IMG/VR virus record: IMGVR_UViG_3300043567_000596
Coordinates: 1-41,527 of that record
DNA: 41,527 nt
Strand: one strand, 5' to 3'
Origin: a virus
The notes beneath the pieces are model-generated. The model did not search any database and was not told the origin of the DNA. It saw only the letters and a list, made by a program, of their open reading frames with translations. Shown piece by piece: positions 22,182-24,022 of the stretch (the stretch's first letter is position 1; the number at the start of each line of letters is the position of its first letter). A program made the translations under genes and the position numbers.

Positions 22182-22213
22182 TTTGGAATTTTGATGTTTT
22201 TATAGTATATTTG
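22182..22213 (+). promoter_or_regulatory. Bacteroidota-type promoter of the RNA island
   Basis: TTTG (22182-22185), 20 nt, TATATTTG (22206-22213), both at consensus. It lies 41 nt upstream of the initiator tRNA and would produce a boxA-containing transcript. Confidence 0.85.
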
Positions 22214-22236: not shown

Positions 22237-22247
22237 GTTCTTTAAAA
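22237..22247 (+). promoter_or_regulatory. boxA-like antitermination element
   Basis: GTTCTTTAAAA lies between the promoter and the first tRNA. It resembles boxA of bacterial rRNA leaders (about GYTCTTTRAMA), which recruits NusB and S10. Similar elements occur at 22729 and 24012, only in the RNA island. Confidence 0.5.
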
Positions 22248-22253
22248 TTATAT

Positions 22254-22325
22254 CGTGGAGTAGAGCAGTGGTAGCTCGCTAGGCTCATAACCTAGAGGTC
22301 GGTGGTTCGAACCCATCCTCCGCAA
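22254..22325 (+). tRNA. tRNA-fMet (CAT), initiator
   Basis: Cloverleaf with acceptor CGTGGAG/CTCCGCA. The first pair is C1-A72, a mismatch that marks initiator tRNAs and blocks elongation use. The D arm GAGC..GCTC and anticodon loop CTCATAA match E. coli initiator tRNA closely. The anticodon stem has only two of the usual three G-C pairs. CCA is not encoded. Confidence 0.9.
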
Positions 22326-22331
22326 CAAAAA

Positions 22332-22423
22332 CTATCATAGTGGTATCTGATACTGACAGCTCTATGGGAGTGATGGGTGTGAAAGCAGATTGAAAAGGCT
22401 ACAACGTAAACCCACTATGATAG
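22332..22423 (+). ncRNA. Structured RNA closed by a perfect 12-bp stem
   Basis: CTATCATAGTGG (22332-22343) is the exact reverse complement of CCACTATGATAG (22412-22423), enclosing 68 nt. It starts six bases after the initiator tRNA and so should be made from the same promoter. The interior can form CTC-TATGG-GAG, but no tRNA features (T loop or anticodon arm) are seen. No ORF of note is present. Unknown RNA; possibly a processed small RNA. Confidence 0.55.
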
Positions 22424-22447
22424 ATTGAAAAATATTTACAAATAAAC

Positions 22448-22484
22448 TAGGAAATGTGAAAATGTTTTCGTATATTTGTAAAAC
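22448..22484 (+). promoter_or_regulatory. Promoter in 37-bp direct repeat, copy 1
   Basis: The -7 box TATATTTG is at 22471-22478, preceded by TTTTCG. The -33 position reads CTAG instead of TTTG. The whole 37-bp stretch (22448-22484) recurs without change at 22610-22646. The downstream unit is the small RNA at 22489. Confidence 0.75.
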
Positions 22485-22488
22485 AAAA

Positions 22489-22585
22489 TGAGAGAGTGGT
22501 TGAAGCCATCATCTAATAAAACCGAATGAGTGACCACTTCCTTATGGTAAGGGGGTTAATAAAGCCGGATACCCCTCTCACTTTT
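22489..22585 (+). ncRNA. Small four-way-junction RNA with own promoter and terminator
   Basis: The helices tile the RNA almost without gaps: closing stem TGAGAG/CTCTCA (22489-22494 with 22575-22580), arm AGTGGT/ACCACT (22495-22500 with 22533-22538), hairpin CCTTA-TGG-TAAGG (22540-22552), and arm GGGT/ACCC (22553-22556 with 22571-22574). This is a cloverleaf-like junction but has no T loop or anticodon signature. CTTTTT follows the closing stem, so the stem can also act as terminator. Function unknown. Confidence 0.6.
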
Positions 22586-22609
22586 TGTAAAAAAAAGTTT
22601 TAAAAATAA

Positions 22610-22646
22610 TAGGAAATGTGAAAATGTTTTCGTATATTTGTAAAAC
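22610..22646 (+). promoter_or_regulatory. Promoter in 37-bp direct repeat, copy 2
   Basis: Identical to 22448-22484, with TATATTTG at 22633-22640. It is the closest promoter upstream of the large RNA candidate, so it probably drives 22650 onward. Confidence 0.75.
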
Positions 22647-22654
22647 TAAATCGC

Positions 22655-22722
22655 ACTACCGATTCAATGTGAGAGTAGTATAAACAGAGTATCCTTAACC
22701 GGACATAAGTTTGGCTCACATT
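22655..22722 (+). ncRNA. Structured leader RNA, possible pseudoknot
   Basis: AATGTGAG (22666-22673) pairs with CTCACATT (22715-22722), 8 bp perfect. ACTAC (22655-22659) can pair with GTAGT (22675-22679), which interleaves with the first helix and would form a pseudoknot if both coexist. Inside, CTTA/TAAG (22694/22706) forms a small hairpin. It lies between promoter copy 2 and the boxA at 22729. Confidence 0.5.
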
Positions 22723-22728
22723 AAATAA

Positions 22729-22738
22729 GTTCTTTAAA
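22729..22738 (+). promoter_or_regulatory. boxA-like element before large RNA
   Basis: GTTCTTTAAA, as at 22237. Its place directly before about 880 nt of untranslated sequence fits a need to prevent Rho-dependent termination. Confidence 0.5.
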
Positions 22739-22739
22739 T

Positions 22740-23620
22740 TAATGAAATAATTTCTATAAAGTAACCTAGTGTTACACAATAGAGTGGCCGCATATGGTCG
22801 TTAAATAAACTTCGAAAGAAGGATAAAGTGGGTGTACTAAGTGGTACATCTGCGGCTCCTCCCATAAGGGAGATGAGCTCGAGTATGCAAGTGAGATATC
22901 ATTTTGGCTTTGTAGGTGGGGGTAACACTATCATCGAAGAGTTGAAATGACTGAGCAACTGTAGATTGTTCAGTTGAGGTGGGAACACCAATAAGAATAA
23001 CTCATAGAATTTATGTAAGAAGTATGAACTTAATCCCTTCATATCATTGCGTGATTCAATACCAAAGTGGTCTTAACATCAAATTGGGGAAACCCCTTAA
23101 GATAAGACTGTGTACAGGTGGTGCTGTTACTATCCTTTTATAATGTGTACCAACACTTATAAATGAAGATGACTTGAAGTATGGTGGTAGGGATATCACA
23201 TCGAGTAGTATAGTATTCCGTTGTTCAAAAGATAACGGAGCTGGTGGTAAACCACTACTTGAATAATTCTACAAACTAAAACTCAATTTGATTTGGACAT
23301 CAAAATTCAATTAAAATTAAGAAAAAGTGTTTACCAGTTGCAGACGAAAGGTGTCTACATAGTAATGAGTTGTTCATTGCCACAAACCTCCTCAAGGGGA
23401 ATGTGATTCATCTGAAAGGTTTCTAACACCGCGAGGTGCTAATCTGCTCGGCAGGGTAGAAGAAAATAAGTACGATGAGAGTAGTTTGTAACTTTAAGAT
23501 TGATAATCTATAAACATCGACATTGAATTGGTACTTCTCAAAAGGAAGTGGAAACGAAAGGAAACAATAATCTTTCTAAAGCTGGTTCGCAATATGGAGT
23601 ATTCTCATCCTTATTTTTTT
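22740..23620 (+). ncRNA. Large ornate non-coding RNA candidate (GOLLD/ROOL-like in setting)
   Basis: About 880 nt with no convincing reading frame and dense helices: GTAAC/GTTAC (22761/22771), GCCGCA/TGCGGC (22787/22851) enclosing CTTC-GAAA-GAAG and TGTAC/GTACA, CTCCC-ATAA-GGGAG (22859), CTGAGCAA/TTGTTCAG (22951/22966), GGTG-GGAA-CACC (22978), GTCTTA/TAAGAC (23070/23103) around GGGG-AAA-CCCC, TCCGTT/AACGGA (23217/23234), GTGG-TAAA-CCAC (23244), CACC-GCGA-GGTG (23427), CTGC-TCG-GCAG (23444), AGATT/AATCT (23497/23505). GATGAGAGTA (23474) pairs with TATTCTCATC (23600), followed by TTATTTTTTT, a terminator. Several loops are GNRA type. GOLLD and ROOL are long phage RNAs found beside tRNAs; membership is inferred from setting and form only. 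Confidence 0.65.
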
Positions 23621-23660
23621 ATCATAATGGTTAGAGTTGGTTCGATTCCAATAATGATAG
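23620..23660 (+). ncRNA. Minimal tRNA-like hairpin without anticodon arm
   Basis: A T arm is plain: GTTGG, loop TTCGATT, CCAAT (23636-23652). Around it TATCAT (23620-23625) pairs with ATGATA (23654-23659) like an acceptor stem, followed by GCA. Between acceptor and T arm only ATGGTTAGA remains, similar to a D loop; there is no anticodon arm. It could be a tRNA relic or an acceptor/T-arm mimic that tRNA-binding enzymes recognise. Confidence 0.5.
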
Positions 23661-23667
23661 CAGTGAG

Positions 23668-23742
23668 AAGTAATTTATCGAGGCTTATATTAACCGGAGC
23701 ATGACTTGACGTGGCGTATTTTGAAGATGAATTACTTTTTTT
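23668..23742 (+). ncRNA. Hairpin-closed RNA with terminator
   Basis: AAGTAATTTATC (23668-23679) pairs with GATGAATTACTT (23726-23737), 12 bp with one G-U, followed by seven T. The 46-nt interior has no coding potential. The strong stem and U tract make it a terminator; the long loop suggests it is the 3' end of a distinct RNA. Confidence 0.6.
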
Positions 23743-23777: not shown

Positions 23778-23870
23778 ATGAGAACATCTTTAACACATAC
23801 AACTTATAGCCAACCGAATCTAATTTGGGAAGGCCGTTGTGCGCTGTTAGAGGATACTGATGTAGGATAA
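23778..23870 (+). CDS. Possible 30-residue peptide
   Basis: ATG 23778 to TAA 23868-23870, preceded by the A/T leader TATATTAACA. The peptide begins MRTSLTHTTYSQPNLIWEG. It is the only reading frame worth noting in the 1.55-kb gene-poor stretch and is followed by a terminator after 27 nt. It could equally be chance; no promoter of the usual type is visible. Confidence 0.25.
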   Translation: MRTSLTHTTYSQPNLIWEGRCALLEDTDVG

Positions 23871-23897
23871 AATGTAAATAACATTTGAATTATATAA

Positions 23898-23928
23898 ACC
23901 CTCTAACCCAAAAGTTAGGGGGTTTTTT
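23898..23928 (+). terminator. Intrinsic terminator
   Basis: ACCCTCTAAC (23898-23907) and GTTAGGGGGT (23914-23923) form 10 bp with one G-U, followed by six T. It lies only six bases before tRNA-Asn, so the tRNAs beyond need antitermination, read-through or a promoter I do not see. Confidence 0.8.
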
Positions 23929-23933
23929 GTTTT

Positions 23934-24005
23934 GGGGAATTAGCTCAGCGGTAGAGCAATAGACTGTTAATCTATTGGTCGATGGTTCGAATCCATCATT
24001 CCCCT
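23934..24005 (+). tRNA. tRNA-Asn (GTT)
   Basis: Acceptor GGGGAAT/ATTCCCC, D arm GCTC..GAGC, anticodon loop CTGTTAA, T arm GATGG-TTCGAAT-CCATC. A complete cloverleaf without encoded CCA. Confidence 0.95.
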
Positions 24006-24011
24006 CTGTTG

Positions 24012-24022
24012 GTTCTTTGACA
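24012..24022 (+). promoter_or_regulatory. boxA-like element between tRNAs
   Basis: GTTCTTTGACA, the best boxA match in the window and similar to bacterial rRNA leader sequences. It sits between tRNA-Asn and tRNA-Tyr. Confidence 0.5.

Follow-up and report, generated by a model that had tools for sequence, protein, structure and literature searches.

The stretch of DNA analysed here (hereafter the window) covers all 41,527 nt of the virus record IMGVR_UViG_3300043567_000596 from IMG/VR, which is probably a fragment. It encodes a T4-type RNA ligase and GroEL, and the contigs of relatives recognised by the RNA ligase reach 335 kb. ARAGORN detected 18 tRNAs in the window, confirming the tRNA island that a preliminary description of the sequence had noted. 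A tRNA-Met(CAT) (22254–22326, plus strand), itself preceded by a promoter at 22206 and a boxA at 22237, lies before a long stretch without genes, and a tRNA-Asn at 23934 lies behind it. The largest element of this stretch is an RNA of the GOLLD family. Three further structured elements, here called E1, RNA A and E3, are located between tRNA-Met and GOLLD. The order tRNA-Met, RNA A and GOLLD recurs in relatives.

In a local search with cmscan (Rfam 15), the region 23201–23611 on the plus strand matched the family RF02032 (GOLLD) with 284.3 bits and an E-value of 1.1e-81. The match spans positions 1–416 of the 416-position model, which represents the conserved 3' domain of GOLLD only and has a gathering score of 150 bits; a variable linker at approximately 23261–23325 is included. 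The score is close to those of relatives (269–306 bits). At the gathering score, none of the 4227 Rfam families matched except GOLLD and tRNA. Upstream of the Rfam match, the plus-strand region 22780–23200 is homologous over its full length to the 5' domains at further GOLLD loci (blastn; L011, L055, L065, L087 and others), the part seen by cryo-EM as the cap domain of GOLLD env-38. Homology of the 5' domain together with the match of the 3' domain indicates an RNA of about 833 nt at 22780–23612. The preliminary description had proposed a single large RNA at 22655–23620, either of the GOLLD or ROOL kind or an unrelated analogue. The first of these proposals was correct, the RNA being a GOLLD, and GOLLD proper lies within the proposed limits, while 22657–22722 does not belong to it and forms the separate hairpin E3.

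The minimum fold of 22780–23612 has an energy of −224 kcal/mol, with a z-score of −5.2 relative to dinucleotide shuffles. The longest stop-free frame on the plus strand of GOLLD comprises 62 codons in the window and 44–78 codons in seven relatives. It differs among the relatives, and no protein frame is conserved across these eight loci, in agreement with the earlier reading of the stretch as structured and gene-free. Hairpins with GNRA-type loops were found where they had been placed before, with GAAA at 22811–22820, GGAA at 22978–22989 and GCGA at 23427–23438. A small extra hairpin is present in the 5' domain at approximately 23080–23105, which most relatives do not have. A length of about 800 nt, the lack of a conserved frame, nearby tRNAs and a phage origin, shown by the IMG/VR record and the phage RNA ligase, are all features of the family that are found in the window. 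We conclude that the RNA is a complete GOLLD with both domains and a member of this family.

A scan of IMG/VR with a pattern from the 3' domain, GTGGAWANGANNGGAAANAATAATC, yielded at least 119 stretches. Among the matches listed, 93 loci had enough sequence, of which 44 were retained after near-duplicates (≥92% identity) had been dropped. The alignment of the 5' domains of these 44 dereplicated loci (A1) folds into 107 predicted pairs, and for 84 of these at least one sequence shows compensatory changes on both sides. Such changes occur throughout the 5' domain, indicating that selection acts on the RNA itself; the covariation among homologues that had been anticipated is thus present. Around bridge B8, a loop reads GC in most GOLLD loci and TCGA, with a central CG, in seven. 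This variation is in line with the GC/CG switch reported for bridge B8 of GOLLD (PMC12286853), the loops being equated according to our reading of the published numbering.

Outside this set, INPHARED contained two GOLLD matches, both in uncultured phages of 635–642 kb, and none of the 84,980 genomes of bacteria and archaea scanned matched the GOLLD pattern. With GACGAAAGGTGACTA, a short consensus meant to find GOLLD outside Bacteroidota, five loci were returned, none of which was a GOLLD. A G + C-rich pattern returned 54 loci with one real GOLLD, a divergent member (226.6 bits) on the 372-kb (jumbo) phage L439. Just upstream of the latter, on the minus strand of L439 (11344–11427), is a phage-encoded small SRP RNA (RF00169, 42.3 bits), with the boxA-like sequence GGTTCTTTA nearby.

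The promoter in front of GOLLD belongs to a duplicated unit, as was already proposed. The plus-strand copies at 22440–22489 and 22602–22651 are identical in 46 of 50 bases, and each carries the Bacteroidota-type −7 box TATATTTG, at 22471 and 22633–22640, respectively. Copy 1, whose −7 box lies 31 nt before the GAAGCC of RNA A, is the presumed promoter of this RNA, and copy 2 the presumed promoter of a transcript comprising E3, boxA and GOLLD. The unit belongs to a family of promoter repeats that is kept in relatives, with copies before small RNAs and GOLLD in L011, L055, L065 and L066. A −7 box of the type TAnnTTTG was found no more than 300 nt upstream of GOLLD in 43 of the 44 loci.

Between copy 2 and GOLLD lies the boxA GTTCTTTAA (22729–22737, plus strand), which presumably serves the GOLLD transcript as its antitermination signal. 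The boxA suspected in front of the RNA proved to be general. The motif GTTCTT[TA][AG]A is present within 150 nt upstream of GOLLD in all 44 dereplicated loci, where dinucleotide shuffles give an expectation of 0.41, at a variable distance of 20–128 nt. It was found neither in the 44 GOLLD bodies nor, for 43 loci, within 150 nt downstream. Since the search pattern for the relatives sat in the 3' domain, the leader boxA was not selected for. The layout kept in relatives is a Bacteroidota promoter followed by boxA and GOLLD. BoxA also precedes the divergent GOLLD of L439 and that of the 635-kb phage L002; none was found in the 330 nt upstream of GOLLD in the 642-kb phage L003.

In 94 stretches, almost exclusively of Bacteroidota, the sequence GTTCTTTGACAT was located at a distance of 70–100 nt upstream of the 16S start, and 16S leaders with boxA were found in Dyadobacter, Spirosoma, Arundinibacter, Flavobacteriia and Haliscomenobacter. 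The leader in the window resembles them in its GTTCTTTGA core and in the long, structured and untranslated RNA that follows, but differs in driving a phage RNA instead of rRNA. Based on this identity, the box in the GOLLD leader is very likely the rRNA boxA of Bacteroidota, and GOLLD is probably made as an antiterminated non-coding transcript in the manner of rRNA. Promoter type and boxA together point to a host among the Bacteroidota. A literature search returned no description of GOLLD together with a boxA leader or a Bacteroidota promoter, and both the leader and the small structured RNAs flanking GOLLD look like unreported additions.

At the 3' end, the preliminary description had placed a terminator made of a 10-bp helix and a U-tract. 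The U-tract is real (U7, 23614–23620, plus strand), but only 27 of the 44 loci have a U-run behind GOLLD. The helix did not hold up as part of a terminator. Its arms, GATGAGAGTA (23474–23483) and TATTCTCATC (23600–23609), form a long-range complement 116 nt apart, which is absent from the Rfam consensus structure of GOLLD, and a terminator scan found none at the GOLLD 3' end. The GOLLD sequences of L055 and L065 lead directly into tRNA-like sequence without a U-run, so that their 3' ends may be formed by processing.

Several elements follow downstream. Just 3' of GOLLD, at 23620–23659, the window contains a mini-tRNA-like element with an acceptor stem and a T-arm (TTCGATT) and no anticodon arm. 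It has a counterpart in L087 (approximately 2051–2092), and the acceptor stems of the two differ by paired changes. The small RNA F (23666–23742, plus strand), with the core TATTAACCRGAGCATGACTTG and a closing stem with a U-tract, shares 81–86% identity with sequences located downstream of GOLLD in the close relatives L011, L055, L066 and L087 and is present in about 20 further loci. A frame of 30 codons, MRTSLTHTTYSQPNLIWEGRCALLEDTDVG, occupies 23778–23870, with short frames similarly placed in L055 and L087, and a strong terminator hairpin lies behind it at 23896–23925.

RNA A (22487–22582, plus strand) consists of two covarying helices and a variable region, with the conserved features GAAGCC, the hairpin loop TAATAAAACCGA, GTGAC and AAAGCCGGA; another member of the family lies at L087:957–1040. 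A search of IMG/VR with the loop motif gave 39 stretches. In an alignment of 41 sequences (A4), 94.6% of the cells in the two named helices are paired, and two-sided changes affect 12 of the 13 pairs; the structure has a covariation score of 0.775, compared to at most 0.16 when it is slid. The RNA model R1 scores 83.6 bits at 22492–22579 of the window, and no Rfam family fits. RNA A is a new family of small structured RNAs and a separate conserved RNA of the GOLLD island. In 46 of the 54 contigs that carry it, GOLLD follows 195–1010 nt downstream on the same strand, the usual order being tmRNA, tRNA-Met, A, (B) and GOLLD, where B denotes the hairpin described below. RNA A was found in only six of about 100 GOLLD stretches, all of this phage group, so that part of its link to GOLLD may reflect common ancestry of the gene order. 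Base pairing between the loops of RNA A and conserved GOLLD segments, judged by eye, revealed nothing convincing.

Hairpin B, whose cases were selected by the conserved loop core GATGAAAGATACTCGG, occurs at L203:3941–3989, L011:3690–3738 and about 80 other places. Among 81 distinct cases, a promoter lies before it in 61 and a boxA after it in 62. Its named stem covaries in 10 of 11 pairs; RNAalifold gave no structure because the 3' arms shift by 1–2 columns. The hairpin is not in Rfam. Hairpin B stands in front of GOLLD and, elsewhere among phages, in front of a tRNA or of an untranslated RNA of about 550 nt, and may be a general leader element of untranslated phage RNAs. Blast searches with RNA A or B found no match among INPHARED phages, and the models of both found none in 80 relatives by RNA ligase, whose stretches may not reach the tRNA island.

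The RNA of about 550 nt was observed as an untranslated stretch with a U-rich end behind hairpin B and boxA on the minus strand of L206 (6504–7073), and also in L234, L262, L266, L286, L291 and L298, with 66–82% identity between phages. The stretch of L206 has no Rfam match and is possibly a new large phage RNA.

In the window the B model finds nothing, and the E3 hairpin (22657–22722, plus strand; 8-bp closing stem 22666–22673/22715–22722) takes its place in the interval between promoter and boxA. A homologue of E3 with its own promoter is present in L328, while most relatives have none. That E3 might be a divergent hairpin B was ruled out, as the B model misses the window, and a weak match to the reverse complement of B (18/25) was judged to be due to chance. 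E1 (22333–22425), which contains TGGTATCTGATACTGACAGC and is closed by a long stem, is present in four loci and has 85% identity over 101 nt to L087:719–819. Further hairpin cassettes, C, D and E, were observed upstream of GOLLD in L066 (7340–7770), L055 and L065, several of them behind promoter repeats. Phage tmRNA genes lie upstream of the module of tRNA-Met, A and GOLLD in L087 (332–706), L011, L055, L065 and L066; the window has none.

Other explanations of the locus differ widely in how well they agree with these observations. A different giant RNA of similar appearance, either ROOL or an unrelated analogue, had been left open by the preliminary description, and ROOL, too, is a cage-forming RNA located close to tRNAs (PMC12286853). 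Given the match to the whole GOLLD model and the lack of any ROOL covariance-model match in Rfam even at E-values up to 1, both alternatives can be set aside with near certainty. It is also highly improbable that the window holds a decayed or non-functional copy of GOLLD: the window does lack the tmRNA and the hairpin B that its relatives carry, but the 3' model is matched from end to end with a score inside the range of those relatives. Somewhat less remote, and still very improbable, is that GOLLD is the spacer of a long tRNA transcript, without a transcript of its own and with a leader serving the tRNAs. The tRNAs on both sides of GOLLD and its continuation into tRNA-like sequence in L055 and L065 would fit such an arrangement, which is contradicted by the compensatory changes across the 5' domain, by the promoter directly before GOLLD and by the finding that a tRNA was detected within 250 nt downstream in only six of the 44 loci.

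The nature of the GTTCTTTRA box deserves more caution. In a further alternative the RNA is a GOLLD, but the box is a promoter-region or processing element instead of a boxA that binds Nus factors. The box sits a short way behind the promoter, and copies also occur inside coding regions of the window (4823 and 31175). We consider this alternative unlikely, though far from negligible, since the box is identical to that in 16S leaders of Bacteroidota, stands at a variable distance from GOLLD and also precedes tRNA units of the island, at 22237 before tRNA-Met and at 24012 between tRNA-Asn and tRNA-Tyr. A boxA leader followed by a complete GOLLD remains the preferred reading.

The closest known system is GOLLD env-38, which was first found downstream of a Met-tRNA and forms an empty RNA cage as a homo-14-mer according to cryo-EM (PMC12286853). 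The RNA of the window is similar in matching the whole 3' model, in the size of its 5' domain, in its variable A/U-rich linker, in its length of 833 nt and in its position in a phage tRNA island with tRNA-Met upstream. Compared to env-38, the window features the extra hairpin of the 5' domain, the boxA leader with a Bacteroidota promoter and the small RNAs A, F, E1 and E3. ROOL shares with it the giant size, the phage origin and the location near tRNAs, cage formation being known for ROOL from the literature; the RNA of the window is distinct from ROOL in sequence and secondary structure.

Taken together, we consider it quite probable that the locus as a whole is best explained by a complete GOLLD of a large Bacteroidota phage, in a layout of promoter, boxA and GOLLD, with an antiterminated transcript that assembles into a cage. 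Transcription would start at the promoter repeat, at about 22650. NusB-S10 of the host would then load on the boxA at 22729 as on the rRNA leaders of the host, which we infer from the occurrence of this box in rRNA leaders and from work on E. coli. There, rRNA antitermination needs boxA with NusB/NusE and is proposed to prevent Rho-dependent termination (PMC4807359). The loaded complex would keep Rho and pauses from ending the untranslated 0.8-kb transcript. The RNA is expected to fold co-transcriptionally and, by virtue of its family membership, to self-assemble into an empty cage of 14 copies, as env-38 does.

For the GOLLD cage the structure is solved, while its role is described as unknown in the literature (PMC12286853). 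GOLLD levels rise during lysis, and a pull-down report ties GOLLD to ribosomes (PMC12286853); a GOLLD of a Lactobacillus brevis prophage was reported to be dispensable for phage production (PMC7567579). As a guess of rather low probability, the cage might hold, or hold off, translation-related RNA late in infection, be it tRNAs, small RNAs of the island or ribosomal parts. Equally speculative is the broader idea that these phages possess a dedicated RNA island, rRNA-like and antiterminated, with GOLLD at its core, in which the small RNAs A, B, C, D, E1, E3 and F would work with the cage, e.g. as cargo or as regulators of transcription or assembly.

The presence of boxA before GOLLD in every one of the dereplicated loci suggests that these phages transcribe GOLLD like rRNA, which ties this RNA to the ribosome-making machinery of the host. 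RNA A, with its strong covariation and its position 0.2–1.0 kb upstream of GOLLD in most contigs that carry it, is a candidate partner or cargo of GOLLD.
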